DNA from: Sulfuricurvum sp.
GTDB lineage: Bacteria > Campylobacterota > Campylobacteria > Campylobacterales > Sulfurimonadaceae
Assembly (NCBI RefSeq): GCF_028713855.1
Contig: NZ_JAQTNN010000014.1
Span: 1 to 64,000, forward strand
DNA length: 64,000 nucleotides
Direction of reading: 5' to 3'
The position numbers were made by a program, and so were the translations under genes. Shown in pieces: positions 888 through 24,232 of this stretch; position 1 is the first letter of the stretch; every line of letters starts with the position of its first letter. The notes under the pieces were generated by a model. It was not told the DNA's origin. It worked only from the letters and a program-made list of their open reading frames with translations, and made no database searches.

Positions 888-3122
888 ATGGCTGATGAGA
901 AAGTGATCATATTTCGTAAAAATGAGAAAGATGAATATTTCCGTAAGTCTACAGAATTTGCTAGTGCAGATGTTGTATTACGTGACGATGCAAAAAATTC
1001 TGGCTCAGTTGAAAGATTAAGTGCCACTATCCTTAAAGGTGTCCAAGATCAGTTATTTGATATGGCACGACAAAAACAGATTGAATTATCTTCCAAGCAA
1101 CTTACAGCAGGACTTTCTACTGAGTATAAAGATATTTATATTGACAATTATATAAAAGATGTGCGTAAAAAAGATAAATCTAAACCGATAGATCGACTTA
1201 CTGATGAAGCTGAAAAAAGTTATGAGCTTAAAAAGAAAAATATAGATCGTTTAGCAGAAAAAGAAGCATGGAGAATAACAATCAAAGAATCTGTAGCAGA
1301 TGATGAATTGATGTTTAAGTTTGATGCAAAAAGTATATTTGATTATGCGAAGGTTCACGGTGGTGGACATAAAGATCGACTCTATCAAGATGTAAAAAAG
1401 ATTCAGCAACGTTTTAATAACTGGTCAGAAAAAAAGTTTGATACAAAGTCCGGAAAAATAGTTGACAAAGAAGTTACAGGTGTTTTATTCCCCTACTCTG
1501 AATATTCCCATGGAGATAATGCAGCAATTGAGATTAAACTTGAAAAAGAAATGCTTTCAATGGTTCTCTTTTTAAATAAAAATTTCTTGAAATATCACCT
1601 AGATTCTTATCTTAAAGTGGAAACACCTAACGCCACACGTCTTTATGAACTACTCGTTGATTATATTTCTGGCAATATCTTTGTCTCTGGTAGAGATTTA
1701 ACTTTTGAATACCTACAAAAGAAATTTAATACCAACTATAAACTCTTTCGTCTCTTTTTACAGCGTTTAATGACGCCATCACTTGATAAAATCAATAGTG
1801 AGCTTGGAACATCGATTTCTTGGGAGGTCGATAAAAAGAAGGGTCGTTCCATTGATACTATTAAATTTGTTATCAGTACCCATGACAAAAAAATCCTACA
1901 AGGTATTAGAGATGAAGATATCGATGATTTCATTTTGTATTCATTTGAGTATTATTGTGCCCTACTCTCTCTCTCCGGACAACGAGCTCAAGGGGGGCTA
2001 AAAGCTTTATATGAGAAGGTCAGAGGGATGATCAATGATGGAAGTTTTAATTATCTCAACAAGACAAAAGAAGAGATGGTAAAAGAGCACCTTCAAAACC
2101 TTGAAGATGCTGAAGAGCTTGAGGGTCTTATAGAAAGAGACGAAACACTTGCGGAAAAATATTTCTATGATCGAAAATATATGAATATCATGGAGCGTGA
2201 TGAGACATCGTTTGTTGGATCAAATGCAATTGAGTCGCTAGAATATATTCGTAGCAGCTATTTGATTCCAAGAGGATTTCTGGGACCTACGCTATCATTT
2301 TTTACATCCCATGAAGAAGAAAAAGATCATATTTCTTCAATATTACCGATTACCTTTAAATTGACCGAGAAAAGGTCTATTGTTATAGCTGAAAATAATT
2401 TTGACTCAATGAAAACAACTATTGAACCTTATCTAACATCTACCGAACGCTTTATATTTGATAGTGCAGAGCATAAAGAGAAATTTTGCAAAGTATTTGG
2501 GATTGAATATTTTGATGATTTATCCCCAGCAATTGAAGCTGACGTGGTGACTGAAATACATGTAGATGATATCTCGACATTACAACCAGTAGAATTGAAT
2601 CTATTTGAGAAGCTTGAAAACATCATGAATATGATTGGAAACCGATCAATTGCAAAAAACAAAGATAAATGGTCAAGCGCTGTAGATGATTTAATTGAAG
2701 AATATGGCAATGCCGCAGTTGGAAATGTTATTAAATTCTTAACTAGTGGAAATGAAAGTGCCCTATTCTGGCTTAAAAATATTACTACTCCTACCAAATT
2801 CATTAAGCATTTTGAACAAATTGAACAAGTATGTAATGTAGAGCAGGTAAGTTTACTACAAAAAATAAAATCTGATCCAGAAATAAAAGTATTAATGAGC
2901 ATGATGCAAAACCGTGGAGAATCAGAGGAAGCAATTACTCATGAAGTTAATTCATTTGTATCAAGAAAGATTGAATCAGGTGTATATGAAGCACAATCTA
3001 AAGAAGCCCCATGGCAAACCGAAAAGCGAATTAAACGTGAATCAAATATTGAATTGATGGCAGAAATGCAAAAAGCAGGGTTTAATAATATATTTGATTA
3101 TTTAGAAAGTATAGATAGATAG
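888..3122 (+). CDS. RepB/Rep_3-family plasmid replication initiator with long C-terminal extension
   Basis: The product (744 aa) should bind the upstream iterons and start plasmid replication. Residues about 150-345 match the paired winged-helix layout of Rep_3 initiators: a first domain ending near the TRLYELLVDYISG segment, then a second with LQKKFNTNYKLFRLFLQRLM, a conserved Lys-Ile-Asn segment and KKKGRSIDTIKFVI. Typical members are about 250-400 aa, so nearly 400 C-terminal residues are extra; I recognise no domain in them, though they are charged and helix-rich. ATG 888 follows a GAGGG-type RBS. Location next to iterons and parAB supports the role strongly. Confidence 0.85.
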   Translation: MADEKVIIFRKNEKDEYFRKSTEFASADVVLRDDAKNSGSVERLSATILKGVQDQLFDMARQKQIELSSKQLTAGLSTEYKDIYIDNYIKDVRKKDKSKPIDRLTDEAEKSYELKKKNIDRLAEKEAWRITIKESVADDELMFKFDAKSIFDYAKVHGGGHKDRLYQDVKKIQQRFNNWSEKKFDTKSGKIVDKEVTGVLFPYSEYSHGDNAAIEIKLEKEMLSMVLFLNKNFLKYHLDSYLKVETPNATRLYELLVDYISGNIFVSGRDLTFEYLQKKFNTNYKLFRLFLQRLMTPSLDKINSELGTSISWEVDKKKGRSIDTIKFVISTHDKKILQGIRDEDIDDFILYSFEYYCALLSLSGQRAQGGLKALYEKVRGMINDGSFNYLNKTKEEMVKEHLQNLEDAEELEGLIERDETLAEKYFYDRKYMNIMERDETSFVGSNAIESLEYIRSSYLIPRGFLGPTLSFFTSHEEEKDHISSILPITFKLTEKRSIVIAENNFDSMKTTIEPYLTSTERFIFDSAEHKEKFCKVFGIEYFDDLSPAIEADVVTEIHVDDISTLQPVELNLFEKLENIMNMIGNRSIAKNKDKWSSAVDDLIEEYGNAAVGNVIKFLTSGNESALFWLKNITTPTKFIKHFEQIEQVCNVEQVSLLQKIKSDPEIKVLMSMMQNRGESEEAITHEVNSFVSRKIESGVYEAQSKEAPWQTEKRIKRESNIELMAEMQKAGFNNIFDYLESIDR

Positions 3123-7123: not shown

Positions 7124-7873
7124 TTGCAAAATCGCTATAGCGGTGATATGGGAGATTTCGGAAAGTTTCTCCTCCTCAAACACCTTTTCCCTACAGAATC
7201 CATTGCTACCATCTGGTATCTCTACCCAGATGAGACTCACAATAATGACGGAAGTCACAGGGTAGAAGAGGGCAATACCAACCTCTACCGCCACTGCCAC
7301 TCGCTAGATCCGCAGATGTCTGAACTCTTTCACCAAATCCATCAACGAGACTCTCGTCATATCGATTTATTCGAAGAGATGGGTGTCTTAGAGAACGGCC
7401 ATTATTTCACCGAGAGTATTCTAGGGGAGGGGGAGGGTCACCGGATTCAATGGATCGAACGCGCCATAGAGTTTATTCGATCCAAATCGTGCAGCGTCGT
7501 TTGCCTCGATCCCGATAACGGGATTGAACCTTCATCTATGTCTAAACTTTCCATTCTCAAACAGGGAAAATATGCCACTTATACCGAGATCGAGTCATTC
7601 TTTACCCTTGAGTGCGTAAATCATCTGGAGATCTATCAGCACTTTCACCGACAGCAATCGCATGAGGCTCAGATGAGGGAAGCAAAAGTAAAATTCGAGA
7701 GGCTGTATGAGGGGAGAGCGGTGGTAACTATCATCCGTCACAATCCGGTTCAGGCTCGTTTTTACATCGTTCTCTCCAAACCAACCGAGATTTTAGAGTC
7801 TCTACGATCATTGGAGAATCGTATGTATGGTCCCAGAGTGTTTTTTAGCGTCCTCAGAGCACTGAACGAATAA
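7124..7873 (+). CDS. Conserved hypothetical protein, MxNRY-GDxGDFGK family
   Basis: The 249-aa product begins QNRYSGDMGDFGKFLLLKHL after a TTG start, a beginning I recall from uncharacterised bacterial proteins of the form NRYVGDxGDFGKYGLL; the match supports the TTG at 7124. A second block VVCLDPDNGIEPSS (about residues 125-138) holds Asp and Asn residues that could be catalytic or metal-binding. No transmembrane segment or signal is seen. Function is unknown; related genes occur scattered in accessory DNA, so a defence or nucleic-acid role is possible but unsupported here. Confidence 0.65.
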   Translation: MQNRYSGDMGDFGKFLLLKHLFPTESIATIWYLYPDETHNNDGSHRVEEGNTNLYRHCHSLDPQMSELFHQIHQRDSRHIDLFEEMGVLENGHYFTESILGEGEGHRIQWIERAIEFIRSKSCSVVCLDPDNGIEPSSMSKLSILKQGKYATYTEIESFFTLECVNHLEIYQHFHRQQSHEAQMREAKVKFERLYEGRAVVTIIRHNPVQARFYIVLSKPTEILESLRSLENRMYGPRVFFSVLRALNE

Positions 7874-7962
7874 TAAACAACTCTGTGTTGCAATAAATCG
7901 TTTCTGAGCCTTAGAGGTGTGTTATCATTGCGCTAATTAAACATCCATAAGAGAGGAATACA

Positions 7963-8184
7963 ATGCAGCAACCTTTTATGGCGTATGAAAACGATACGGA
8001 CGGATTCACTACCGGTGAACTCCAAATCAAAAACGCTCTGGACGTCATAACGATTGAAGGAACCCTCGAAATCACCAAAGATCGCCAAGGGCTCGAAGCG
8101 GCACTCAAACTCAAACGAGCCGTCGATGCTGCCATCGATGCGCTCAAACGTGATCGTAATCTCCCAGATAGCATTCGAGACTGA
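7963..8184 (+). CDS. Small unknown protein (73 aa)
   Basis: A strong RBS (AGAGAGGAA) precedes ATG 7963, and a -10-like TATCAT lies near 7924. The protein has a short beta-like start and an amphipathic Lys/Arg-rich C-terminal helix (ALKLKRAVDAAIDALKRDR). I do not recognise it. The next small gene starts 14 bp after its stop, so the two likely form an operon. Confidence 0.55.
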   Translation: MQQPFMAYENDTDGFTTGELQIKNALDVITIEGTLEITKDRQGLEAALKLKRAVDAAIDALKRDRNLPDSIRD

Positions 8185-8198
8185 GGTGAGAACACAAA

Positions 8199-8429
8199 AT
8201 GGACGAGATAGAAGAATTACAACTTCATCCCCGGATTAAAACCGAAACGGCCCAAGGGCGCACCTATGGTGAGTGTGTCATGGATGAGATATCCAGCATC
8301 AAAATGATCGATGGGGAGTTTCGCACTACCTTGCACATTAAAGAGAAACCCAAACGGCTATGTCGTGATGATGCTTTGATCTATTACACCCAAAAGCTGC
8401 GCAGCGTATGGGCAAATATTCTGGAGTAG
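8199..8429 (+). CDS. Small unknown protein (76 aa)
   Basis: ATG 8199 follows GAGGTGAG. The product is a charged soluble protein with mixed strand/helix look and no recognisable motif. It is the second gene of the 7963-8429 pair and converges on the DUF3293 gene. Confidence 0.5.
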   Translation: MDEIEELQLHPRIKTETAQGRTYGECVMDEISSIKMIDGEFRTTLHIKEKPKRLCRDDALIYYTQKLRSVWANILE

Positions 8430-8446
8430 GGTGGGGTGTTAAAAGG

Positions 8447-8854
8447 CTATTTTTCTAATGTTCTTTCGGTAATCGCCACTCCTGTTTCACACTCATAATA
8501 GCCGACATGCGAAGATGAACGATAAAAGATCGCGTATTGCTCCTCTGCTTTAGCTAATTCAATCGCCTCTTCAAATGTGATATCATAAATGCAATAACTC
8601 TCTTCGCTGTGATCGTCCAAATACCCAAGCGCTTCATCAAACGGATAACCGGATTCTAAAAGCTTCTCAAAGAGCTGTTCGTTACGCGTTGTATTTTCCT
8701 CAAGACTTAGTGGTTGATTGTTCGGATTCCATGCGGTGAGAATGGCAAAGGGTGCATCGAAAGGTGCGTAAGTGGGTAGGGTATCAATCGTAAAATCGAT
8801 CACTTCGCCGTTGTGAGAAATTCTAAAATGGGTGTTATCGTAAATGTCTTTCAT
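8447..8854 (-). CDS. DUF3293 family protein
   Basis: This 135-aa protein matches the DUF3293 pattern: FAILTAWNPNNQPLSLEENTTRN (the T-A-x-N-P box followed by a conserved N-x-x-R-N segment), then a GLY/acidic middle and a C-terminal EEAIELAKAEEQYAIFY segment. The biochemical function of the family is unknown. It stands alone on the minus strand, convergent with 8199-8429. Confidence 0.7.
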   Translation of the reverse strand: MKDIYDNTHFRISHNGEVIDFTIDTLPTYAPFDAPFAILTAWNPNNQPLSLEENTTRNEQLFEKLLESGYPFDEALGYLDDHSEESYCIYDITFEEAIELAKAEEQYAIFYRSSSHVGYYECETGVAITERTLEK

Positions 8855-8902
8855 GCAATCAGTATAGCATCAAGATGGCTTGAGCTTAGCTGAATGCTAA
8901 AA

Positions 8903-9085
8903 TCAAGCCTTGATGTCGAGATTTTGACCCAAACCGGTCAGCTCGGCAGCTAGTGATGCGTTGGAATCTTGAGGAACAGGGGCACTCTCAAGCAATTTCA
9001 TAATTCCTTGATCTTGTGAATCGATCGCTTTTTTTAAAGCGTACATCTGCGGTCCCATTCCACTTTGTGAATTGATTGGATCCAT
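8903..9085 (-). CDS. YjfB-like putative motility protein
   Basis: The 60-aa product has the pattern of the YjfB putative-motility family: a short Met/Gln-rich start, then ALKKAIDSQDQGIMKLLES as the conserved central helix, and a Gly/Leu-rich tail. The RBS AAAGGAGG is near-perfect, indicating strong translation. The family name comes from neighbours in other genomes; no motility gene is near it here. Confidence 0.6.
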   Translation of the reverse strand: MDPINSQSGMGPQMYALKKAIDSQDQGIMKLLESAPVPQDSNASLAAELTGLGQNLDIKA

Positions 9086-9167
9086 GATTTATCCTCCTTT
9101 TGGAGTTAGAACCTATATCGGCAGTTATTGGGAAAAAGCGTAACCCAATAAAGCTAAAGATGTGTTC

Positions 9168-10568
9168 TCATTCGACACCTTGATCTTTGATCTCTTCAAA
9201 CTTTGCTGCCATGGTAGGGTTGTGTCGTGTTAATTTCTTCACCGTCACATCCTGAGCTTTATCATTGGCAATACGGAGATTTCTATCGGCTCCAAGCAAG
9301 GCATCTTTTGTCTTTTGGAGATGATCGATCGATTTGTCGATCTCCATGATGGCTGTCTCGAACTTCTTTGATGCCAATTCGTAGTTTCTCGAAAACGCCG
9401 TTTTAAATGCGTCCAAATCGTTCTCAAAATTGGTGACATCGATGTTTTGCGCTTTGACGAGGGCAAGTTCGTTCTTATAGGCCAGAGAATTCATGGCAGC
9501 ATTGCGAAGCAGGGTGATGATCGGGATAAAAAACTGCGGTCGAACCACATACATTTTCGGATAACGATAGGAGACATCCACGATACCCGTATTGTAGAGT
9601 TCATTCTCCGGTTCAAGGAGTGAAACGAGGATCGCATATTCGCAGTTTTTCTCACTGCGGTCTCGATCAAGTTCCTTGAAAAAATCCTCATTTTTCTTCT
9701 TGGTTCCTGATGTATCGCTCTCATTTTTCATCTCGAACATGATGGAGACGATTTCTGTCCCTGATTCATCAGCATCCCGGAAGATATAATCCCCCTTGCT
9801 GCCGCTTCTGGCATCATTGTCCTTCTCAAAATAAGCTCTAGGAAACGCAGTAGGGCGTATACGGTTGAACTCTATCTCACAATGCTGTTCAAGGCTCTCG
9901 CCTATCATCTTCGTTGAAAGGCGGGCTTTCATGTCTTTGAGACGCTCAATCGCATCGTCACGATCTTTGATCTGCGTCTCATATTTGTCTTTTAACGACT
10001 TTTCGGAGAGCTGTTTTTCAAGTTCAATCTGCTTAAGGCTGTTGGTGAGTTCATCTCGCTCTCTTTCAACACTGCTGAGCGCTTGGTTGATCTCAAGCTT
10101 TTTGCTCAATTCATTCGAATCAAGTTTGGCTTTGAGTTCTTGAATCTCTTTTTCTTTTTGAGCGTTTACCTCTTGAAGCTCTTGCATGTATTTTGCATCG
10201 GCGAGTTTTACGGCGGTCTCGTTCTCCTGCTGTAACCGTTGTAGGGAATGGGAAAGCTCATCACGCTCTTTCTCTATGGCTTTGAGCGCTTCGGAGACGG
10301 CAAGCTGCTGCATCATCTCATTTTTGCTGATCAGGGATTTGAGTTCTTGGATTTCTGATTCTTTTGCAGAAGAGGCTTTTTGCAATTCACTGTTCAGTTT
10401 TTCTTGTGCAAGCTGGAGCGCGTATTGTTTATCCTTTTCTGCGAGTTCAAGTCTCTCAGAGAGCTGTTTTTCAAATGCGCTGTCACGGACTTGTTTGAGA
10501 ATATCGGCATAGCCAGCTTCATCGATTTTAAATGCCTTATGGCAATGCGGACAGATGATTTCATTCAT
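9168..10568 (-). CDS. DUF2130 protein: zinc-ribbon, coiled coil and nuclease-like domain
   Basis: The 466-aa protein opens with [11 protein letters not shown] (Cys5, Cys8, His9), probably half of a zinc knuckle. A long heptad-like coiled coil follows (about 25-215), rich in Glu/Lys/Leu. The C-terminal DUF2130 region begins around [21 protein letters not shown] and includes [31 protein letters not shown] and [19 protein letters not shown]. The D-Y-I and E-M-K pattern agrees with a PD-(D/E)xK fold assignment, as I recall for this family. Its role is unknown; the domain mix suggests DNA end or repair processing. Confidence 0.75.
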
Positions 10569-10646: not shown

Positions 10647-10880
10647 TTACGACGCCATCAACTGATCATAAAACACCTCATACATGCTCTCATCATCACG
10701 ATCCATGACCAGAGCGATCCGTTTTCCCATTCTCGTATAGGTATCGAGCAGATAGACCTGCTCGCCTTGATGGGAGTAGAGTGAGGAGGTCATTTTTGAG
10801 AGCCCATAGGCTTGATGGGTCGGACGGGAACGCTGAGATTCGGCTCGCGCCGCAGTTGAGGAGAGATTGGTTTGCATCAT
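10647..10880 (-). CDS. Small unknown protein (77 aa)
   Basis: ATG 10880 follows AGGAGAAGATC, a good RBS. The N-terminal 30 residues are Ser/Thr/Arg/Gln-rich and probably disordered; the C-terminal half (GEQVYLLDTYTRMGKRIALV, then an acidic segment) looks like a small beta-rich domain. I do not recognise it. The micro-ORF at 10894-11016 lies directly upstream on the same strand. Confidence 0.5.
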   Translation of the reverse strand: MMQTNLSSTAARAESQRSRPTHQAYGLSKMTSSLYSHQGEQVYLLDTYTRMGKRIALVMDRDDESMYEVFYDQLMAS

Positions 10881-10893
10881 GATCTTCTCCTAC

Positions 10894-11016
10894 TTACGCG
10901 ATAAATTTAAAGGTAAGGGTTTTAAGGGCGTGATAAACACCCATTTGCGTGTGCATCTCTTTGACTTTTAGAGTTACCCATACCAAAGCCAGTGAAGTAA
11001 TGATTAACGATTCCAT
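10894..11016 (-). CDS. 40-residue membrane-anchored micro-protein
   Basis: ATG 11016 is preceded by TAAAGGATAAGTCT, a well-placed RBS. The peptide starts with a hydrophobic helix (SLIITSLALVWVTL) followed by a basic tail, so a single-pass membrane micro-protein is likely. It is 13 bp upstream of the 77-aa gene and may share its transcript. The RBS and the helix support it; no homologue is known to me. Confidence 0.45.
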   Translation of the reverse strand: MESLIITSLALVWVTLKVKEMHTQMGVYHALKTLTFKFIA

Positions 11017-11053
11017 AGACTTATCCTTTACGGGGTTAATTTAGATTTTGGTA

Positions 11054-11087
11054 TGATGCACTACTCATTGGACAACATAGTGTCTGT
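11054..11087 (+). promoter_or_regulatory. Promoter and GGACA-N6-TGTCT operator of the first WYL gene
   Basis: A -10-like TATGAT lies at 11054-11059 and the palindrome GGACAACATAGTGTCT at 11072-11087, immediately before the RBS AAAGGA and ATG 11101. Unlike the other five copies, here the palindrome lies downstream of the -10, over the transcription start, as expected for simple autorepression. Confidence 0.6.
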
Positions 11088-11100
11088 TTAAAGGATCGAT

Positions 11101-12030
11101 ATGGGACAAATTCATGACTACGATAAAATCCTTACCCGTTTAACTATCATCCTACAGCGATTATATGAGGGAGAAGTGTTATCGGTTCAGGATTTAGCCG
11201 CAGAGTTCAATGTCTCGACAAAAACCATCCAGCGTGATTTTAATCAACGACTGATCCGTTTTCCGATAGAGAAGCAGGGGAGTAAGTGGAAAATGCAGTT
11301 AGGGCATTCCCTCACCAAAGAGCGAACTCCCGAAGAGGCACTGGTATTGGAGATGCTGGGCAATATCGCTGAGGGGATAGGAAGTGAATTTGGTGTCAAA
11401 GCCAAATCGCTCTTCTCCAAACTTCAAAACAACACCAAAAACCCTATTTACTCTAAAACCATCATCGAAGATATCTCAGATAAACTTGGACACTTTCATA
11501 TCATCGAACAAGCGATTATGGAGAACAAGATGGTACGGTTTCATTACAACAATAAACTCCGTCATGTCCATCCCTATAAGATCGTCTCCTTTGAAGGGTA
11601 CTGGTATCTCTATGGAGAAGAGTTCATGGAGAGCAAACTCAAGACTTATTACTTCAAAGGAATAGATCATCTTGAAATCACTCCAGAATCCTTCATCCCT
11701 AGCGATACAACCTATCGGATATTAGAACGTGCCATCAACGCATGGTTTGAACCGGACAAAGAACCGTTTGAAGTGACCCTCAAAGCATCCCCAGAGATCG
11801 CCAAATACTTCCACCGCAGACCACTCGCCAGTACCCAGCGAATCCTCAAAACATACGAAGATGGAAGTATGGAGATCGAAGTGCTTGCCACCTCTGAGCG
11901 TGAGATCATGCAAGAAGTAAAGAAATGGATGCCTGATCTCATCATCACCTTTCCCAAGCCACTAGCTCTTAAAGCCAAAAGCATTGCCGATAGCTTTTTG
12001 AATCGTCAGATTGAAGAGTTGATCGGGTAG
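11101..12030 (+). CDS. WYL-domain transcriptional regulator (WYL-1)
   Basis: The 309-aa protein has an N-terminal winged helix-turn-helix (residues about 10-60; LSVQDLAAEFNVSTKTIQRDFN is the recognition region) and a WYL domain at about 135-215, with GYWYLYGEEF as the name motif and RFHYNNKLRHVHPYKIV as its first strand. A WCX-like C-terminal part follows (FEVTLKASPEIAKYFHRRPL). WYL regulators commonly repress phage-defence genes and sense a ligand, probably nucleic acid or nucleotide. Its own promoter carries the shared palindrome, and the same palindrome precedes several defence operons downstream. Confidence 0.88.
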   Translation: MGQIHDYDKILTRLTIILQRLYEGEVLSVQDLAAEFNVSTKTIQRDFNQRLIRFPIEKQGSKWKMQLGHSLTKERTPEEALVLEMLGNIAEGIGSEFGVKAKSLFSKLQNNTKNPIYSKTIIEDISDKLGHFHIIEQAIMENKMVRFHYNNKLRHVHPYKIVSFEGYWYLYGEEFMESKLKTYYFKGIDHLEITPESFIPSDTTYRILERAINAWFEPDKEPFEVTLKASPEIAKYFHRRPLASTQRILKTYEDGSMEIEVLATSEREIMQEVKKWMPDLIITFPKPLALKAKSIADSFLNRQIEELIG

Positions 12031-12251
12031 TATTGGAGAATGGGCTTGAGTCATGTGGTAATCAGAAATCTGCAAAAAATGCTTTTAAGTATTTCTTAAA
12101 AAAATACTCATTAGAATTTGGGTCAAGGAATCGGTTCCGTCGCTTGGCAATGTAGGTTGCGCAAGGTAAAAATGCCTTCTAACTGAAAAACTTCAAATAG
12201 TAAATTCTGCTTATTATCCCACACCTATACATTCTTATAACAAGGCATTTC

Positions 12252-13994
12252 ATGCTAAAAAAATTCGTTTTAAGTCGGTATGCTGTTGAGTGTAACGGCA
12301 GTCCGCGATTCGTTGCCATCCCTGTGGTTGGATTAAATCCTGATATGATTAAACAAGGCTATCGTGATTTGCAAAGATCAGATTTGTCATTGAAGAAGAA
12401 TGACTATTTAAATCGTGTCGCCGATGCAATAGGTATTTATCCATGGGGTAAATATGAGTCATTTTATGAGAATAACATAGTGCCTTTTCTTGAGCAGAAT
12501 ACCTTAACATTTTATGCTCAGGATCACGGAGTTGATCTGCTAGGTAATCGCTTCACATTTCGTTCTATTGCCGACAGACTCTTCTTTTCGGATCGGCCTA
12601 TCCCTAAAGCAATATTCACAGGATATGGTTGTAATATCGATCATGAGTATTTTTATAATCCGAGTGTAGCGTTTGGAAAACCGGTGAAATCATATGATGA
12701 AATTGTTTCAGAGGCAAATGTCGACCTATTGATACCATTTAGACATAAAAATAATTTTCTTGGTATTTTTAATAATCTGCTTGGCGATGTTTTTATTCTA
12801 AATCATTCTCATGAAGATGATCGATATATAGTAACTTCCTACCCTCAAAATGGCGAAAAATACAAGACCAATGAGAGTATGATAGAAGATGCTAAAGAGC
12901 TCAAAAAGCTAATGTTGCAGTGTGCAAAAGGGTGGATAGAAATAATTCCCTTCAATGAGCACCTTATATTTTTGAAAGGGCCGAATGGAATATATGATTT
13001 TGTATTCAAGCATCTCAGAAATTCAGACTTTGAGGATCAATCACCATTCAGACCTTATTTGAATCATGACCGTATTCCATCGGTGATGAATGAAACTTAC
13101 GACTTTGCCAGATGGCTCTATTTTGGCAGAAAAGAAGACGATTCAAAGAAGAAACAGCAAGATGCACGTAGATCGTATTGGCTTGAAGAACTTCAGCATC
13201 ATGCAAATATAGATTTCTATGAATCCGGTGGCAGGATACATCCTGGGCATGAAAACTTATTGAAAAACTATTTTGAAAAAATGGGGGAGTACTCGTACAC
13301 CAAAAAAACAAAATCGGATCAACTACCCGGTTTTAAAGAAATCGAGCTAGCAAACGGTAAAGTATTGTTTACTTCAGACCTGATCACGATCGGAGAGTTT
13401 TCAGAATTTTACAATGATGAATCTTCTCATTCAAAAAGCTATCGAGAAGGGCGACATCCAGAGAATGATATTTGGGAAACAGTCAATTTAGAACCTGATA
13501 ATTATCCGGTAGCTGTGACCTATTATGATGCTGTCGCCTATTGCCGATGGGTTGAATTGAAACATAATGCTCCGGTGCGGCTCTTATCAGCCATTGAATG
13601 GTATGAGATGTTCGATAATCCTTTTAAAGTGTCTGATTTGAATGGGTTAAATCGATGGTCTGATGATCTAATATGTTTTACTCCGGCAAATGATGTCATT
13701 GAAGACATTACTAAACCCAGAAATGATTTCCAGGAAATTTATGTCCGTTTCAAAAATCCGCCTGAAATGATTCCACAGAGTAATGGTTTACAGTTATGTA
13801 TCAATCACCATTTTTCTGAATGGCTTTTGGAGTTTAATGGTCACGATGCAGCAATGGTTACGCCCTCATTGATGAAACCGTTGACTTTATCTTTCTTGTC
13901 CGGGGATGAGTTATCCACACCATCATTTTCGGCTGAAAGTACCGGAAAATATAAATATCAAAAAATCGGCTTTAGGATCTGTTATGAGAAATGA
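12252..13994 (+). CDS. Unknown protein with C-terminal FGE/SUMF1-like domain
   Basis: The 580-aa protein has two parts. Residues 1-355 match nothing I know. Residues about 362-578 follow the formylglycine-generating-enzyme/C-type-lectin pattern: VLFTSDLITIGEFSEFYND, then NYPVAVTYYDAVAYCRW (418-433), APVRLLSAIEWYEMF in place of yRLPTEAEWE, a weak GN-x-x-EW equivalent (HHFSEWLLEF) and the closing IGFRICYE. The paired catalytic cysteines of true FGE are not evident, so it is more likely a binding or scaffold version of the fold. The stop overlaps the NYN gene by 11 bp, implying a two-component unit. Confidence 0.65.
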   Translation: MLKKFVLSRYAVECNGSPRFVAIPVVGLNPDMIKQGYRDLQRSDLSLKKNDYLNRVADAIGIYPWGKYESFYENNIVPFLEQNTLTFYAQDHGVDLLGNRFTFRSIADRLFFSDRPIPKAIFTGYGCNIDHEYFYNPSVAFGKPVKSYDEIVSEANVDLLIPFRHKNNFLGIFNNLLGDVFILNHSHEDDRYIVTSYPQNGEKYKTNESMIEDAKELKKLMLQCAKGWIEIIPFNEHLIFLKGPNGIYDFVFKHLRNSDFEDQSPFRPYLNHDRIPSVMNETYDFARWLYFGRKEDDSKKKQQDARRSYWLEELQHHANIDFYESGGRIHPGHENLLKNYFEKMGEYSYTKKTKSDQLPGFKEIELANGKVLFTSDLITIGEFSEFYNDESSHSKSYREGRHPENDIWETVNLEPDNYPVAVTYYDAVAYCRWVELKHNAPVRLLSAIEWYEMFDNPFKVSDLNGLNRWSDDLICFTPANDVIEDITKPRNDFQEIYVRFKNPPEMIPQSNGLQLCINHHFSEWLLEFNGHDAAMVTPSLMKPLTLSFLSGDELSTPSFSAESTGKYKYQKIGFRICYEK

Positions 13995-14682
13995 TCCTAA
14001 AACAATTGCACTTTATATTGATTGCGAAAATATCAGCTACAAACGGCTTGATGAAATTATCGAGCAACTCTCCTCTTACGGGGAGATTATTATTCGCAGG
14101 GCTTATGGAAATTGGCAGAAAGAGAATCTAAAAGCTTGGAATGACAAGCTTTATGAATATGCTTTAAAACCGATTCATCATTTGGAGTATGCAAAAGGAA
14201 AGAATTCGAGTGATATGACCTTGGCTATAGATGTAATGAATATGTTGTCAAGGAATATTGATATTTTTGCTTTCGCATCAAGTGATAGCGATTTCACACC
14301 ACTCATTATGGAATTACGAGAACACAGTAAAAGAGTTTTATGTTTTGGAGAGAGCAAGGCATCTCAGTTGTACAAACAAATCTGTACAGATTTCATTTGT
14401 ATTGATGCACAATTTGGTAAAAAAACTCGAAAAGAATTACGGCAGGACACAAGGCTGGTCAATATGCTTCGTAACGCAGTGGATGAAGAAAAAAATGAAA
14501 ATGCTCATGCCAGTTTTTTTTCTGTTGAAGCTAATTTGAAAAGAAACGGGTTTTCCGCAACAACTTTTGGATATGAAAAATTGAGCGATTTACTCAAAGA
14601 GATTGATATATTTGAAATTGATGTGAAGCAGGGGCTGCACAAGGCTATTCTTTGGGACAAAAGAGTACGGAATCATGGTTGA
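13984..14682 (+). CDS. NYN-domain (PIN-like) nuclease with C-terminal LOTUS/OST-HTH-like domain
   Basis: From ATG 13984 the product is 232 aa. Residues 7-135 fit the NYN/LabA fold: ALYIDCENISY with the Asp-x-Glu-Asn quartet, DMTLAIDVMNML, and FAFASSDSDFTPLIMELRE, which supply acidic residues for metal-dependent RNA cleavage. Residues about 150-220 (LRNAVDEEKNENAHASFFSV, then TTFGYEKLSDLLKEIDIFEI) resemble an OST-HTH/LOTUS RNA-binding domain, a frequent partner of NYN. I chose this ATG because the upstream in-frame ATG at 13906 lies deep inside the FGE-like gene. The 11-bp overlap indicates coupling. Confidence 0.8.
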   Translation: MRNDPKTIALYIDCENISYKRLDEIIEQLSSYGEIIIRRAYGNWQKENLKAWNDKLYEYALKPIHHLEYAKGKNSSDMTLAIDVMNMLSRNIDIFAFASSDSDFTPLIMELREHSKRVLCFGESKASQLYKQICTDFICIDAQFGKKTRKELRQDTRLVNMLRNAVDEEKNENAHASFFSVEANLKRNGFSATTFGYEKLSDLLKEIDIFEIDVKQGLHKAILWDKRVRNHG

Positions 14683-14720
14683 GTATGGGTGCAGTTATTA
14701 ATCAAATTTAAGCAATAAAC

Positions 14721-14753
14721 GGACACTAGGGTGTCTAAAATGTGTTCTACACT
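14721..14753 (+). promoter_or_regulatory. GGACA-N6-TGTCT operator with -10 TACACT
   Basis: Palindrome GGACACTAGGGTGTCT at 14721-14736 is followed after exactly 11 bp by TACACT (14748-14753). It should control the 14782-15501 genes. The same 11-bp geometry recurs at 16537-16568 (minus), 16618, 18504 and 24246. Confidence 0.65.
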
Positions 14754-14781: not shown

Positions 14782-14883
14782 ATGGAAAGTATGACAGATA
14801 CCGAATGGATAATTATAGCGCTGATGATACCGACCCCTGTGTATATCTACAAACATCAAAAGACGTTTGAGAAATGGTTTTAG
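14782..14883 (+). CDS. 33-residue single-pass membrane micro-protein
   Basis: ATG 14782 follows AAAGGTCATTGAG. The peptide carries one hydrophobic stretch (WIIIALMIPTPVYIY) with a short acidic N-terminus and a basic C-terminus, the profile of a tail- or signal-anchored micro-protein. It sits between the palindrome promoter and the 202-aa gene, 9 bp upstream of the latter, so it is probably its first cistron. Confidence 0.45.
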   Translation: MESMTDTEWIIIALMIPTPVYIYKHQKTFEKWF

Positions 14884-15511: not shown

Positions 15512-16510
15512 TTATCCTCTTTTGCAGCCACCGTATGTCCGAGCGGGCTGTTGGCGAAGTTTCTCGACTGCCGCTTGCGCTTCACGTAGCAGTATCTCTC
15601 GAAGGCTACGCGGATAATGTACCTGTATATGAGGCAGCCACTGACGACACAACGGTACCATCTCCCAAACACTGGTGACGGTATAGGTGACGATGATATC
15701 TCCATCGTCTAAATGGGAGACAACCTTTTGACTCGGTAAAAACTTTTTGAGTTTGAAATAACGTGCTACTTCGCCACTGATTTGCAGTTTTACTTCACGT
15801 TCATCGAATGTCCCATCCGCTTTCGGATAATACTTCGCCCATGAGGTCTGAAAACGCTCGACGAATTTCAAAAATGATGGATCTGGTCGGAACAGCTCTC
15901 CGGTGGATTCGATACTTTGAATCATAGCTACACGTGATAGAAGCAATGACGGAATTCCCTCATGAAACAACTCACTTGCGAGGTAAAAATTCTCATTCAA
16001 AAAGACGATTGAGTAGGGACGGGCGATAAAGACCGATGCTTCACCATCACGCAGATAATCGATACGGATCTCCTGATGGAACTTCACGGCACGTTCTAAC
16101 TCACGAAACAGCTCAGGACGGCTGTTAAACTCTTCAAACGGTCGGGTTTTAAATGTATAAAGCCGCTCGTATTCGCTGATCTTGCCGGTGAGCTTTTCGC
16201 GCTCTTTTTTATCCATCTTTTTGGTGAGGGATAATCCTCCTCGCTCCGCCAGTCCCAATGCCCCTTTGAGCAGGGATATCTCATCAGGGGTGAGTACATT
16301 GTCTAAGAGCTCTTTTTGAATCGCGTAGATCATCCCGTTGTCATTAATGAGAAATTCACCGAATACCTCTTTGATGAGGGCAATGTCACGGCGAATGGTA
16401 CGATCGGAGGTTTCGAACTCAGCAGCCAAGGAAGCGGTGCTTAGACGTTTGCCTTCATTCAGACGCGCGACGATGGTGCTAACGCGATTCATGGAAGATG
16501 CTTTGCTCAT
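15512..16510 (-). CDS. WYL-domain transcriptional regulator (WYL-2)
   Basis: This 332-aa paralogue of the protein at 11101 has an N-terminal HTH (LSTASLAAEFETSDRTIRRDIALI), a WYL domain around 140-215 (RIDYLRDGEASVFIARPYSIV and NENFYLASELF, with the W of WYL replaced) and a C-terminal WCX-like region ending VHYPRSLREILLREA. It is divergent from the TROVE gene, and its promoter carries a 5-bp-spacer version of the palindrome with TATAAT on the minus strand, so autoregulation together with control of the TROVE side is likely. Its base use is richer in GC than most of the island. Confidence 0.87.
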   Translation of the reverse strand: MSKASSMNRVSTIVARLNEGKRLSTASLAAEFETSDRTIRRDIALIKEVFGEFLINDNGMIYAIQKELLDNVLTPDEISLLKGALGLAERGGLSLTKKMDKKEREKLTGKISEYERLYTFKTRPFEEFNSRPELFRELERAVKFHQEIRIDYLRDGEASVFIARPYSIVFLNENFYLASELFHEGIPSLLLSRVAMIQSIESTGELFRPDPSFLKFVERFQTSWAKYYPKADGTFDEREVKLQISGEVARYFKLKKFLPSQKVVSHLDDGDIIVTYTVTSVWEMVPLCRQWLPHIQVHYPRSLREILLREAQAAVEKLRQQPARTYGGCKRG

Positions 16511-16969: not shown

Positions 16970-18499
16970 ATGTCTAAATTTAACACCATACCTTCACAAA
17001 AGCAGTCTAACCTTGCCGATGGCATCTCATACCGCAACGATGCCAAACATGAACTGGCTATCAGTGTCATGAGTTCGACTCTGAGCAACGACTTCTTTTA
17101 TGAGCGTGAAGAGAGCCGTATCGCATCTCTCGAAACCCTATCCAAAGAGCTGATAGCAGATAATGAAGCTTCCTTCGTCGCCAAATGCGCGATCTATGCC
17201 CGTCATAATGCCAACCTGCGTTCCGTATCCCATGTACTGGGCGTTACCTTATGTGAAAACGCTACCGGCAGCGGAGTGATCAAACCCGCTATCAATCGTC
17301 TAATCAAACGGGTCGATGATATGACCGAGCTGGTATCACTATGGAATACCAAGCACCCACAATCAATGGTGCCAAATGGAATGCGAAAAGCATTTCGTGA
17401 GGTACTTGAAGAGAAACGTTTTGATGCGTATCAGCTCAAAAAATATGAGCAGAAAAATGCCAAAGTAAAACTCAAAGATATTATACGTTTAGCACGCCCC
17501 TCAAAACATTTGGAACTTTACAAACAAGTGCTTGATGTCAATCTCCCTAAGATTGAGCAGCTGCATACGTCAATCAAACGTGACACCGATATTCAAGAGA
17601 CGTTTATTGACCTAGCCAAAGCTAATAAAGTGGGCTATATGGAAGCACTCAAAATGACACCGAAGATATTAGAAGGCTACGGACGTGAAGAGACCTTCAA
17701 AGTGTGGAAAGAGATCATTCTTTCAAAAACGTTGCAGAGCCGTTCGGGTGTATTGCCGTTTCGGTATTACAAAGCCTATATCGATCTCACTCAATGCCAA
17801 AGCACCCCTGTAGTAGATCCGATGAACCAAATCGATCTTGAAGAGGTGAGAGAAAAGTATCTTCCCCGTAGTGTATACAAAGATATTCGTAATGTTCTCG
17901 AAGAAGCATTCTCATATGTGACACGTATCGAACCTCTTGCATCTGAGGGAGAAAAAGTAGCGATTCTTATTGATAATTCAGGCTCCATGGACAGCCAATC
18001 ATTAGGGATAAGCTTGTTTTCTCATGCACAGATTTTAGCTAAAGCGATTATTGAGAATGTAGGATGTTCAAACACCTATCTCTATTTTTGGTCGGATATA
18101 TGTGAAGAATGGAAATTGGAGTTAAATTTCACATTTGAGCAAATCAGTCGACATCATGCTGCTAACCGCGCTACTTACGTCAATATGCCGTTTCATCGTT
18201 TAATAGAAGATGAAATCATAGTGGATAAAGTAATCATACTTACCGATAATCAAATGTATGCGCAAAACAGCAAGAAAGAGACTTTCAAGACCTACGCCGA
18301 TCTCTACAAACAGCGTATTGCACCGGATGTAAAAGTGCTGTTCTGGGATTTGGCAGGATATGGTGCCGGAACACCGATCAAACTCGATGGGGATTTTTTA
18401 GAGATTAGTGGGCTCTCCGATAAACTTCTCAGGGTTGCTCCGAAACTTTGGAATGATCCGGATGCATTGGTAAATGAGATCGAATCGATCAATCTTTAA
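16970..18499 (+). CDS. TROVE-domain RNA-binding protein (Ro60/Rsr family)
   Basis: From ATG 16970 (RBS GGAG at 16960-16963) the product is 509 aa. Residues about 10-310 follow the TROVE HEAT-repeat ring: SYRNDAKHELAISVMSSTL, FVAKCAIYARHNANLRSVSHVL and MRKAFREVLEEKRFDAYQLKKY. Residues 328-500 form a von Willebrand A domain with an intact MIDAS start Asp335-x-Ser337-x-Ser339 (IDNSGSMD) and IILTDNQM. Ro60 proteins bind Y RNAs and misfolded or damaged RNAs. The gene is divergent from WYL-2 and preceded by a hairpin-rich leader. rtcB and rtcA are absent from the window. Confidence 0.92.
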   Translation: MSKFNTIPSQKQSNLADGISYRNDAKHELAISVMSSTLSNDFFYEREESRIASLETLSKELIADNEASFVAKCAIYARHNANLRSVSHVLGVTLCENATGSGVIKPAINRLIKRVDDMTELVSLWNTKHPQSMVPNGMRKAFREVLEEKRFDAYQLKKYEQKNAKVKLKDIIRLARPSKHLELYKQVLDVNLPKIEQLHTSIKRDTDIQETFIDLAKANKVGYMEALKMTPKILEGYGREETFKVWKEIILSKTLQSRSGVLPFRYYKAYIDLTQCQSTPVVDPMNQIDLEEVREKYLPRSVYKDIRNVLEEAFSYVTRIEPLASEGEKVAILIDNSGSMDSQSLGISLFSHAQILAKAIIENVGCSNTYLYFWSDICEEWKLELNFTFEQISRHHAANRATYVNMPFHRLIEDEIIVDKVIILTDNQMYAQNSKKETFKTYADLYKQRIAPDVKVLFWDLAGYGAGTPIKLDGDFLEISGLSDKLLRVAPKLWNDPDALVNEIESINL

Positions 18500-18503
18500 A
18501 AAC

Positions 18504-18536
18504 GGACACAATGGTGTCCAACCTCTCCTTTACACT
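18504..18536 (+). promoter_or_regulatory. GGACA-N6-TGTCC operator with -10 TACACT
   Basis: GGACACAATGGTGTCC at 18504-18519 starts 4 bp after the TROVE stop; TACACT follows after 11 bp (18531-18536). Operator and -10 match those at 14721 almost base for base in layout. It should drive the small-protein operon 18566-20029. Confidence 0.68.
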
Positions 18537-18565
18537 GCCATCATCAAAACGTAAAGGATTACACG

Positions 18566-18649
18566 ATGAAACCTACAACTGCTACACGCACTTCATGGAT
18601 GAAGAGAACTCAAGAGACGATTACGCAATGGATGTTTTTTGCGTTTTAA
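18566..18649 (+). CDS. 27-residue micro-ORF
   Basis: ATG 18566 follows GTAAAGGATTACACG, a good RBS, 30 bp downstream of the -10. The peptide is Thr-rich and basic with an aromatic end (QWMFFAF). It could be a leader peptide or a bona fide micro-protein; the RBS is the only support. Confidence 0.4.
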   Translation: MKPTTATRTSWMKRTQETITQWMFFAF

Positions 18650-18673
18650 GAAATACATATATAAAGGATATCC

Positions 18674-18847
18674 ATGTGTATTGCACTCATGTTAATAGCG
18701 CTGATCAGTATCATCATCGGATTCTATCGCATTGTCACTAGACCATCAGCAACGCTGGAAGTACGTTCTTTTGCTATGACATGGGTTTATTCGATGATAT
18801 GGCCGATTATCGTCGTGATAATCGCATTATCGATATGTCTGAGATAA
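18674..18847 (+). CDS. 57-residue two-helix membrane protein
   Basis: ATG 18674 has the RBS AAAGGATATCC. Two hydrophobic helices are clear: IALMLIALISIIIGFY at the N-terminus and MIWPIIVVIIALSICL at the C-terminus, joined by a short loop with Arg residues. It ends 4 bp before the next gene. The RBS, hydrophobic pattern and tight spacing make it a credible gene of unknown function. Confidence 0.6.
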   Translation: MCIALMLIALISIIIGFYRIVTRPSATLEVRSFAMTWVYSMIWPIIVVIIALSICLR

Positions 18848-20161: not shown

Positions 20162-21709
20162 ATGCCTTCTCTCGACTGGATCGGTAAAGCTTCCATACTC
20201 AATCATCACAATGAAATCCCCTACCGACTCGTCGAATGCAATGAAGTTGTTGGTGATTTGAATGCAGGGAACCTCATAGTTAAAGGGGATAACCTTCATG
20301 CATTAAAGGCTCTTCTGCCTTATTACAAGGGCAAAGTTAAACTGATTTATATTGATCCTCCCTATAACACAGGAAATGAAGGATGGGTCTATAATGATGC
20401 TGTAAATAGTCCCGAGATAAAAGAGTGGCTTGGACGAGCTGTTGGGCAAGAAGCTGAAGATCTTTGTCGTCATGATAAATGGCTGAATATGATTTATCCT
20501 CGTCTAAAATTATTGAAAGAATTTTTATCTGAGGATGGCTCCATATGGATTAGTATTGATGATAATGAAGTTCATCATCTTAGAACTCTTATGGACGAAA
20601 TCTTTGGTGTAAAAAGATTTATTGCATGCAATGTATGGCAAAAGCGTTACTCACGTGAAAACCGTGAGGCGATTGGAGATGTTCATGAATATATTGTTGT
20701 TTATGCTATGAATCCAACATTATTCAAACAAAAACGAAACCGTATTCCATTTGATGAAAAACAAGCTAAGGTATATAAAAATCTCAATAATGATCCAAAA
20801 GGACGATGGCGTGGTATTCCGATGACAGCTCAAGCTGGACATGCCACGGCTGAACAGTTTTATGAAATAATTTCACCTGCGGGAAAGGTTTTTCGACCTT
20901 CTGAAGGCAGATGCTGGTCATTATCCAAAGCAACATATGAAAAATTTCTATCTGAAGGAAAAATATATTTTGGTAAAGATGGAAAATCTCAGCCAAATGT
21001 AATTAGATATCTTTCAGAAGTACAAGGTGTTGTTCCTTGGACGTGGTGGCCACATGAAGAAGTTGGACATACTGATGAAGCTTCAAAGGAACTATTATCT
21101 ATTTTTGCAGGGACTTCTGGTTTTAATACAACCCCCAAACCAACCAGATTAATTCGTCGTATCCTCCAAATCGCAAGTAACCCCGGAGATATTATTATGG
21201 ATAGTTTTGCGGGGAGTGGTACTACAGCTCATGCCATATTGGCTCAAAACAATGAAGACAACGGTCAACGCAAATTTGTTTTGGTAGAGATGGAAGATTA
21301 TGCTCGTGATATTACGGCAGAACGAGTAAAAAGAGTCATGCAAGGGTATGGGTCTACTCTAGGCATAGGAGGAGGATTCCGTTACTGTGAACTTGGAGAA
21401 TCTATCAAAGATGAAAATGGAGCGTTAAATCCTGAAGTTTCTGCCGAGGTATTGGCCAAACATCTCTTTTTCAGCGAATACGGCGTACCTCTCGAAACCA
21501 AACCAACTTTGCCTTACATTGGTTCATTTAACGAAAGCGGGCTCTATCTTTTCTTCGATACGTTTGAGCGTAAAAAACTTGCCAAACTCCTCAAAGATTC
21601 AAATGAATCTCGAATCGTATATGCTGCATCTTGCACCATCGATCCTCAAAAACTCAAAGATGCAGGAATTACTTTTCGCCAACTCCCTTTTGAAATCAAG
21701 GATCGATAA
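20162..21709 (+). CDS. mod: Type III restriction-modification methyltransferase (Mod)
   Basis: This 515-aa N6-adenine methyltransferase of the beta class carries the catalytic motif DPPY at 65-68 (IDPPYNTGN) before the AdoMet-binding motif FAGSGTT at 349-355. The segment between, with SIDDNEVHHLRTLMDEIFG after the catalytic core, is typical of Mod subunits and holds the target recognition region. ATG 20162 lies behind AATAGGA. The TAA is immediately followed by the res ATG. It recognises the site for both subunits and protects the host strand. No simple-sequence tract that would make it phase variable is visible. Confidence 0.92.
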   Translation: MPSLDWIGKASILNHHNEIPYRLVECNEVVGDLNAGNLIVKGDNLHALKALLPYYKGKVKLIYIDPPYNTGNEGWVYNDAVNSPEIKEWLGRAVGQEAEDLCRHDKWLNMIYPRLKLLKEFLSEDGSIWISIDDNEVHHLRTLMDEIFGVKRFIACNVWQKRYSRENREAIGDVHEYIVVYAMNPTLFKQKRNRIPFDEKQAKVYKNLNNDPKGRWRGIPMTAQAGHATAEQFYEIISPAGKVFRPSEGRCWSLSKATYEKFLSEGKIYFGKDGKSQPNVIRYLSEVQGVVPWTWWPHEEVGHTDEASKELLSIFAGTSGFNTTPKPTRLIRRILQIASNPGDIIMDSFAGSGTTAHAILAQNNEDNGQRKFVLVEMEDYARDITAERVKRVMQGYGSTLGIGGGFRYCELGESIKDENGALNPEVSAEVLAKHLFFSEYGVPLETKPTLPYIGSFNESGLYLFFDTFERKKLAKLLKDSNESRIVYAASCTIDPQKLKDAGITFRQLPFEIKDR

Positions 21710-24232
21710 ATGACGCTTAAAACCTATCAACAAAACGCTCTCGATGCATTGCAACGTTATTTTGTCGAGTTTCGAAGTGATGAGAACCCAAAAGCGTCAT
21801 TGGAACGGACTCAAGAAGCGTTAGGGCTCAGCAAAACCGCCTACACTCTTGTCAGCTCTGAAGCATGGGATTATCTTCGCCCTTATCTTTGTGTTCGTGT
21901 TCCTACCGGTGGTGGAAAAACACTTATCGCTGCACACAGTGTTTCGTTGGCAATGCGTGAGTTATTACGAAGTGATAGTGCTGTAGTCTTTTGGTTGGCT
22001 CCTACCAAAGCGATCGTGGATCAAACATTACGTGAACTTCGTAATCACAATAGTGCAGAGCGACAAGCTATTAATGCTGCAACATCCAAAAGCGTTAAGA
22101 TACTTTCAATTGATGAGGCATACTCGAACGCATTTGATTTGGTCAGTGATTTTGTTGTCATTGTCGCAACCTTTGCAACGTTTCGTGTCGATAAAGAAGA
22201 GGGGCGTCGTTTCTTTGGTTTAAACGGTCAATATGTCCATCTCAAACATGCTTTAGGTGATAAACTGAGCTTGCGTGACGTTTTAGCAAAAGCACATCCT
22301 ATTATCATAGCCGACGAAGCACACAGTGCTCGAAACGATTTAGCTATATCTCGACTACTGGAAATAGAACCATCGTGTATACTCGAATACACGGCAACTC
22401 CACAAATGCAAACGCGTGGTGAAAAAGTTGCTAGCAATATCCTAATCAGCGTTTCTGCTTCTGAACTCAAAGCCGAAAATATGATCAAACTTCCTTTGGA
22501 AGTTCAAGTGATCGATAAGTGGGAAATTGTCGTCAAAGCGGCTATTGAGAAACGGCAAGAGCTCGAAGACCTTAGTGCCGTCGAACTCTCAACAACCGGT
22601 CAGTACATTCGTCCGTTAATCCTCTTCAAGGCTGAGCCGGAAGGGAAGAATGATTCTGTTACCGTCGATGTCTTGGAAGCGTTTTTAAAAGAGAATTTTG
22701 CAATACCGGCTGAACAGATAGCTGTACATACCGGAAAGAGAAAAGATCTCGATGGTATCGATATCATGAGTCAACGCTGCCCGATTCGTTATGTTATTAC
22801 TGTTGCAGCACTAAAAGAGGGATGGAATGCCCCTTATGCATCCGTATTCTGCTCTGTTGCTAATATCGCAGGCGGTACAGCAGTAGAACAATTTTTGGGT
22901 CGCGTATTGCGGATGCCGTATGCTAAACCAAAATCTCAACCAGCATTGGCAAAATCCTATGCGATTGTTACTTCACTGCGAACATCTGAAGTCATTAAAG
23001 CGCTCAAAGATAATTTGATAGAGTGCGGGTTTGAAGAACAAGAAGCGGAAAAAGTCGTCATTCTTCGACCGTCATTGCCAGAAGTACAAGCTCCTGAAAC
23101 ATTACCTTTGATCGAAACAACTGAAGCCGATGATTATTTAGAACGTTGTTTTGCTCCAATCCAAAGCAATTTTAATCCTAATGATATTTCAGTTGAAAAG
23201 AAAATCGAAGTTATTGCATCGGCTCGTAAAGAGGGTGGAGAGTCATTGGCAAAAGCTGTCGAGCAAAGGGTTATGCAAGAGAGTGAAGCCCGTTTTGCTC
23301 AATTTTTCGAGGTACCTACACTTGCTGTAAAAGAACAGGGTGAATTGTGGGATTTTGATAGTGAAATTTTGATTGAAAGATCAATGCTAAGCGAAGCAGA
23401 AATGATCCGTTTGGCTGAGTTTGATGAGAAAGTTTTCAGTGTCCATGCGCACGGTATGAAACTGGAAGTTGATATTGACGGTAAAAAGCTGGTTACACAA
23501 ACGCTTGGAAGCATTAGAGATGATTTGCTTAGTCTCAGCGGACAGGCTGCAACACCTGATGAAAGAGCATTGACGAATGCTGTTTTAAATAAGTTGGATC
23601 GCCGTAATCTGACAATGATTGATCAAGCCAAACTGGTCTTTTTTGTTGCCCATGCGGTTCACTATTGTATTCATACTCGCAACATGGATCCAGTCGCTAT
23701 ACGTGCGAATCTATACGATTTCGCAGATACCGTCAAGCATATGCTCGAAAGCGGATTGGGGCAAGCACGACAACATGCTTTTCAAGAATTGCTTGAAGGG
23801 GATGAACTTGCTATCGGACATGCATTTAGATTTGACAGTGATCGTTACCCTTGTAAGCCGGATAAGAACAGTTTGAATTTTAAAAAGCATTTTTACAAAA
23901 AAGTGCACGAAATGAACAATGAAGAACTTGAGTGTGCGTTATTTATCGATTCTCTTGATGAAGTAGAGATGTGGGTTCGTAATATAGAGATGCAGCCGCA
24001 ACTTGCGTTTTGGTTACAAACGGCTACCGATCGCTTTTATCCGGATTTTATTGCAAAACTCAAAGATGGGCGGATATTTGCTATCGAATACAAAGGGGAA
24101 CATATTATGGAAAGTTCCGATTCGATTGAAAAAAGACGCGTAGGGGACGTATGGGCTAAGGTGACGGGGAATCTATTTGCGATGGTAGGAAGAAGTGATT
24201 TTAAAAACAAAATAACTGATTCTATACTCTAA
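21710..24232 (+). CDS. res: Type III restriction enzyme helicase-nuclease (Res)
   Basis: The 840-aa protein is an SF2 ATP-dependent translocase: Walker A PTGGGKT at 65-71, DEAH at 202-205, LEYTATPQ as motif III, EQFLGRVLRMP as motif VI. The C-terminal nuclease is intact: FYPDFIAKLKDGRIFAIEYK from 776 gives the PD-(D/E)xK triad Asp779, Glu793 and Lys795. It should cut unmodified DNA when two head-to-head sites are present, as known for type III enzymes. It begins directly after the mod stop. Nothing suggests inactivation. Confidence 0.92.
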   Translation: MTLKTYQQNALDALQRYFVEFRSDENPKASLERTQEALGLSKTAYTLVSSEAWDYLRPYLCVRVPTGGGKTLIAAHSVSLAMRELLRSDSAVVFWLAPTKAIVDQTLRELRNHNSAERQAINAATSKSVKILSIDEAYSNAFDLVSDFVVIVATFATFRVDKEEGRRFFGLNGQYVHLKHALGDKLSLRDVLAKAHPIIIADEAHSARNDLAISRLLEIEPSCILEYTATPQMQTRGEKVASNILISVSASELKAENMIKLPLEVQVIDKWEIVVKAAIEKRQELEDLSAVELSTTGQYIRPLILFKAEPEGKNDSVTVDVLEAFLKENFAIPAEQIAVHTGKRKDLDGIDIMSQRCPIRYVITVAALKEGWNAPYASVFCSVANIAGGTAVEQFLGRVLRMPYAKPKSQPALAKSYAIVTSLRTSEVIKALKDNLIECGFEEQEAEKVVILRPSLPEVQAPETLPLIETTEADDYLERCFAPIQSNFNPNDISVEKKIEVIASARKEGGESLAKAVEQRVMQESEARFAQFFEVPTLAVKEQGELWDFDSEILIERSMLSEAEMIRLAEFDEKVFSVHAHGMKLEVDIDGKKLVTQTLGSIRDDLLSLSGQAATPDERALTNAVLNKLDRRNLTMIDQAKLVFFVAHAVHYCIHTRNMDPVAIRANLYDFADTVKHMLESGLGQARQHAFQELLEGDELAIGHAFRFDSDRYPCKPDKNSLNFKKHFYKKVHEMNNEELECALFIDSLDEVEMWVRNIEMQPQLAFWLQTATDRFYPDFIAKLKDGRIFAIEYKGEHIMESSDSIEKRRVGDVWAKVTGNLFAMVGRSDFKNKITDSIL

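Follow-up and report, generated by a model that had tools for sequence, protein, structure and literature searches.

A candidate mobile defence module of an FGE-like protein and a NYN-LOTUS RNase in Sulfuricurvum

Do two overlapping genes in a defence island of Sulfuricurvum sp., one for an FGE-like protein and the other for a predicted RNase, constitute a defence system of their own? The window, the whole stretch of 64,000 nucleotides that was analysed, is labelled contig C14 here and comes from a genome of 2.8 Mb (the home genome, G000). The first gene of the pair (12252–13994, + strand) encodes a protein of 580 aa, in which residues 1–337 are without a match and residues ~338–580 form a degenerate FGE/EgtB-OvoA-type (C-type-lectin-like) domain. 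The second gene (13984–14682, +) encodes a predicted RNase of 232 aa with a NYN domain (residues 8–140) and an OST-HTH/LOTUS domain (155–215). Both ORFs exist as claimed in the preliminary description, which had also proposed translational coupling through an 11-bp overlap. The NYN ORF as listed begins at 13906; its start was reset to the ATG at 13984 based on relatives and the N-terminal motif MRNDPKTIALYIDCEN. Since this start is conserved, the 11-bp overlap of stop and start (ATGAGAAATGA, 13984–13994, +) is correct.

The downstream protein had been described as a PIN-like RNase with an RNA-binding tail, and the domain and fold analyses agree. Pfam detects NYN (1.3e-34) and OST-HTH/LOTUS (8.7e-6). 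The protein is modelled with a pLDDT of 78 from an alignment of five relatives, and the best PDB matches of the model by Foldseek are VPA0982 (2qip) and the NYN domains of mouse and human MARF1. All nine NYN proteins compared have D13, N16, D77, D101, and D103. Of these residues, D13, D77, and D101 correspond by position to active-site acids of other NYN RNases. In a CRISPR-associated NYN, the active-site acids are D13, D118, and D143, and D13A abolishes cleavage (PMC11346440). With both domains present and the catalytic acids intact, the 232-aa protein can be assigned to the NYN-OST-HTH (LK-nuclease/LabA-like) RNase family, and ribonuclease activity is predicted. Among PADLOC models, it matches the general NYN model only (3e-4). 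Its nearest matches outside the home genome include Helicobacter and Sulfurovaceae.

The full-length FGE-like protein is seen in three of ~670 genomes searched: the home genome, with one copy on C14 and another on contig C11, and two genomes of another family, G568 and G618. A fourth genome, G593, contains a C-terminal FGE-like fragment at a contig edge, so that three or four genomes carry the gene. The paralogue on C11 shows 92% identity to the 580-aa protein, and the relatives show 39–41%. At all five loci (C14, C11, G568, G618, and the G593 fragment), a NYN-LOTUS gene lies directly behind the FGE-like gene, with stop and start overlapping by 11 bp in C14, C11, and G593 and by 4 bp in G568 and G618. 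The pairing thus survived the refutation proposed beforehand, that homologues of the two genes never occur together elsewhere. Between the C14 and C11 copies, dN/dS is 0.19 for the FGE-like gene, 0.24 for the NYN gene, and 0.02 for an upstream WYL regulator gene; for the NYN genes of G568 and G618 it is 0.155. These low values indicate purifying selection and therefore maintenance of all three genes. Purifying selection, and the recurrence of the pair wherever a relative was detected, place it beyond chance. The independent lineages with the pair number only two or three. No relatives of the FGE-like protein were found on plasmids, phages, or viral contigs; the scans of viral and genome contigs detect close relatives only, and this absence is therefore weak evidence.

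The sequence shared by G568 and G618 is limited to 2.7 kb (7628–10296 of locus L068, 87.5% identity), extending from ~175 bp before the FGE-like gene to a hairpin just behind the NYN gene, and the flanks are unrelated. Such sharing of the pair and its borders only, inside unrelated flanks, indicates at the sequence level that the pair moves as a unit. In the home genome, a unit of WYL, FGE-like, and NYN genes (10861–14735, +) is duplicated on C11 with 90% nucleotide identity. The surroundings of the two copies differ, and the identity between them is patchy. A third NYN end is found at the edge of contig C19. The non-coding leader of the FGE-like gene (12031–12251) is 98–100% identical between the copies, above most of the flanking coding DNA. 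A structured RNA in this leader was considered and rejected, as its folding is not unusual (z −0.24) and the window contains no Rfam match. In the catalytic middle of the NYN gene (14088–14444), C14 and C11 are 63–77% identical, with flanks at 97–98%; the gene is apparently a mosaic in which the nuclease core was replaced by recombination with divergent relatives. The NYN genes linked to FGE-like genes do not form one clade (tree test, p-AU 0.016). In their history, partners have probably been exchanged or the FGE-like gene lost.

The window annotation bears out the placement of the pair in a defence island between two WYL regulators (11101–12030, +, and 15512–16510, −). Downstream of the pair are a type III RM system (20162–24232), Wadjet-like genes (MksE at 25526, DUF3584 at 26107, and a JetD-like gene at 29766), and a CBASS cyclase (33924) with E1-E2 (32194). 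A Rep3-type replication initiator is encoded at 888–3122, so that the island on this contig may be plasmid-borne. Near the C11 copy are FRG-domain PDC-S15 genes and a Mokosh-like helicase, with SIR2-HerA within ~20 kb. PbeA and PbeC adjoin the NYN fragment on C19, followed further on by DndC and a DndD-like gene. Lamassu (LmuA-LmuB-LmuC) is near the pair in G568. In G618, two integrases accompany the pair, with type I RM and AbiEii ~10 kb away, and one integrase is near the fragment in G593. In total, recognised defence genes lie ~0.2–20 kb away at five of five loci checked (C14, C11, C19, G568, and G618). A defence role drawn from this position is guilt by association.

The joint travel of the two genes between unrelated defence islands points to a so far undescribed system of two parts, which would sense invaders and destroy RNA. 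On balance, the pair is probably a mobile two-gene defence (conflict) module in which a non-catalytic lectin-fold binder is translationally coupled to a NYN-LOTUS RNase. It is a very rare candidate. As the preliminary description had supposed, the defence-model libraries and the literature searched contain no system with this combination of genes.

A two-gene operon of this kind could also be a toxin-antitoxin-like addiction pair, in which the NYN-LOTUS RNase is the toxin, the FGE-like protein is the antitoxin, and the function is to stabilise mobile DNA with no phage sensing. The putative neutraliser is translated first with an overlapping start for the toxin, the mobile unit adjoins integrases in G618 and G593, the window contig bears the Rep3-type initiator, and one genome has three copies of this NYN (C14, C11, and the C19 fragment). 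However, a partner of 580 aa far exceeds the usual size of antitoxins, and its domain has been proposed elsewhere as a sensor. NYN relatives stand alone without such a partner; NYN-LOTUS proteins are therefore not generally dependent on a neutraliser. Together with the defence neighbours at each locus checked, these points make an addiction pair unlikely.

It can also be supposed that the two genes are an ordinary mobile accessory pair of such islands, with a regulatory role in RNA decay apart from defence. NYN-LOTUS genes are common as stand-alone genes in these bacteria (match in 106 of 228 family genomes), and related solitary genes occur in housekeeping settings. Among the NYN loci examined, no FGE-like neighbour is found other than at the five loci above. 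Bacterial NYN-LOTUS RNases are widespread and have been described as stand-alone RNA-degradation enzymes, a role that is only suggested (PMC2848206). The linked NYNs, however, are distinct from the conserved copy of the home genome on contig C17 (33% identity), their distribution with the partner is very patchy, and the known defence systems beside the pair differ from locus to locus. An accessory role is slightly less probable still than an addiction pair.

What the partner of the nuclease is depends on its C-terminal domain (13263–13991, +), which lacks the CX4C Cys pair and GG[ST] and ends with KIGFRICYEK like FGE domains. The Pfam match to FGE-sulfatase (residues 378–450, E 2.4e-4) scores 21.3 bits, under the curated cut-off of 23.3. 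NCBIfam OvoA matches the 580-aa protein at 2.8e-6, and both NCBIfam and PDB profile searches lead to the FGE-like domain of OvoA/EgtB. With a probability of 94% and E 1e-7, hhalign links residues 338–479, and not the N-terminus, to OvoA-like proteins encoded on chromosomes; the alignment used here was built from chromosomal proteins of ~700 aa that are themselves weak matches. Residues 1–337 have no match. AlphaFold, for the 580-aa protein alone and without an alignment, gives an uninformative model (pLDDT 31). Sequence profiles thus support the degenerate FGE/C-lectin-like domain of the preliminary description, and the FGE-like (C-type-lectin) fold is weakly supported. No PADLOC model matches this protein or its relatives (four proteins).

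The catalytic Cys pair CX4C and the GG[ST] motif are absent from four of four FGE-like proteins. Members of the EgtB/OvoA family have an iron site, HX3HXE, in the N-terminal DinB-like domain; it is also absent from all four, whereas the OvoA controls contain it. H316 is the sole invariant His among the FGE-like proteins. Identity as a catalytic FGE (SUMF1/FGE) is rejected for want of CX4C and for the low Pfam score, and identity as an EgtB/OvoA sulfoxide synthase is rejected for want of HX3HXE. Hence a catalyst for formylglycine generation or EgtB/OvoA-type sulfoxide synthesis, linked with an RNA-processing NYN so as to modify or process RNA or a small molecule, is highly improbable, even if OvoA/EgtB are the closest relatives that can be recognised for the domain. 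With both sets of catalytic signatures missing, binding is a more likely role for the FGE-like protein than catalysis. A variable protein diversified by a DGR is likewise rejected: the sole RT found in the genome is on contig C5, and there is little variation in the FGE-like C-terminus from copy to copy, with no amino-acid change at codons 441–520 between C11 and C14. This RT (locus L145, G000:C5:137220) adjoins phage-like genes and a gene with a DGR-target-like lectin C-terminus, and the locus is likely a prophage DGR.

Returning to the defence module, a sensor-plus-RNase mechanism is plausible. Based on comparative genomics, FGS domains have been proposed to contact invader molecules directly (PMC8195603), and work on DGRs treats FGE/FGS domains as antigen sensors (PMC10907252). 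The FGE-like protein could be a non-catalytic, ligand-binding partner with a C-type-lectin fold, and the NYN-LOTUS protein a metal-dependent single-strand RNase whose LOTUS domain would hold the RNA. Translational coupling would allow both proteins to be made together, probably as one complex. In this proposal, the FGE-like protein would restrain the nuclease until contact with an invader-derived ligand. Once the ligand is met, transcripts of the phage and/or the host would be cut, and the infection would be stopped.

In the home genome, the pair is joined also to a BrxR/CapW-like WYL regulator. Control of defence islands has been described for HTH-WYL-WCX regulators of this type (PMC9122601, PMC9122588). 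The regulator at 11101–12030 (+) belongs to the mobile unit here, is 97% identical in the C11 copy, and is missing at the G568 and G618 loci. By sequence it resembles the BrxR/CapW type, with HTH, WYL, and WCX, defence neighbours, and an inverted repeat near the promoter. The imperfect palindrome GGACAacataGTGTCt (11070–11085), between this gene and a divergent small ORF of 40 aa (10894–11016, −; kept in the C11 copy), is a candidate WYL operator. The second WYL (15512–16510, −) is divergent from a different gene, which encodes a Ro60-like TROVE + vWA protein (16970–18499, +) without a PADLOC match. This TROVE locus, followed by a palindrome and a 27-aa ORF, may be another module of the island.

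GGACA-N5/6-TGTCC recurs in the intergenic DNA of the island: before the first WYL gene, behind the NYN gene, before the second WYL gene, and behind the TROVE gene. The palindrome ACGGACAC-N4-GTGTC is seen behind the NYN gene at 14719–14735. Its exact form has four copies genome-wide, one after each of the three NYN copies and one after the TROVE gene (none for the reversed control). The homology of C14 and C11 stops exactly at 14719–14735, the right edge of the unit. Here C14 contains an extra block of 3.8 kb, with a small ORF, a 202-aa ORF, the second WYL gene, and the TROVE gene, bounded by two direct copies of the palindrome (14719–14735 and 18502–18518); this block is missing from C11 and C19, and cassette exchange at the palindrome is possible. 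On C11 and C19, the NYN copies are immediately followed by a ~155-bp element that corresponds to 18502–18657 (+) of C14 and consists of the second palindrome and the small ORF of 27 aa (18566–18649). Small ORFs of 27–57 aa are found near the palindromes: 10894–11016 (−), 14782–14883 (+; 33 aa with a hydrophobic stretch, behind the first palindrome), 18566–18649 (+), and 18674–18847 (+). The 27-aa ORF is conserved on C11 and C19, with the C-terminus QW-FFAF. From this distribution, the homology edge, and the bounded block, the palindrome may serve as an operator, as a recombination seam, or as both. The stretch between the WYL and FGE-like genes contains no GGACA palindrome, which leaves WYL as no more than a possible regulator of the pair.

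These observations permit a more specific and more tentative proposal, one that is possible and somewhat doubtful. A lectin-fold (FGE-like) receptor might directly gate a MARF1-like NYN-LOTUS RNase without an NTPase or second messenger. The two genes would form a cassette moving from one defence island to another; in one genome, palindromic seams doubling as WYL operators would be the sites of its exchange.

The closest known systems share some features with the pair and differ from it in others. As in the FGS/FGE-domain conflict systems (STAND NTPase-FGS, VMAP ternary, and DGR-target systems; PMC8195603, PMC7159879, PMC10907252), a C-terminal lectin-like FGE-type domain is on a putative sensor beside an effector, at loci directed against invaders. 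Unlike those systems, the pair is without a recognised STAND NTPase, EAD, or vWA partner and without a DGR nearby, and a separate protein, the NYN-LOTUS RNase, would act as effector. The nuclease resembles bacterial NYN(LK-nuclease)-OST-HTH proteins of the VPA0982/MARF1-like type (PMC2848206; PDB 2qip, 5yaa) in architecture, fold, and catalytic acids. That family was described without a conserved neighbourhood with known RNA-processing systems (PMC2848206), whereas the gene here has a fixed place after that of an FGE-like partner, with an overlap of stop and start codons. The CRISPR-associated NYN (PMC11346440) is similarly an RNase in an immune locus, and for that enzyme Mn-dependent cleavage of ssRNA requiring D13 has been shown; LOTUS is unmentioned there, and the present pair differs in its partner and in that no recognised CRISPR genes adjoin it. 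The WYL gene is like BrxR/CapW (PMC9122601, PMC9122588) as an HTH-WYL-WCX regulator adjoining defence genes with inverted-repeat sites. It differs in being confined to the home-genome copies, with the best palindromes behind the NYN gene and before the WYL gene, not before the FGE-like gene. The locus type seen here fixes a NYN-LOTUS RNase to a partner whose domain has been proposed as an invader receptor. If the proposed function is true, the pair would be a minimal and directly testable receptor-RNase system, different from the known sensor/effector systems in having no recognised NTPase and a MARF1-like nuclease as the effector, and it would place relatives of MARF1 and other RNA-silencing proteins in bacterial immunity.
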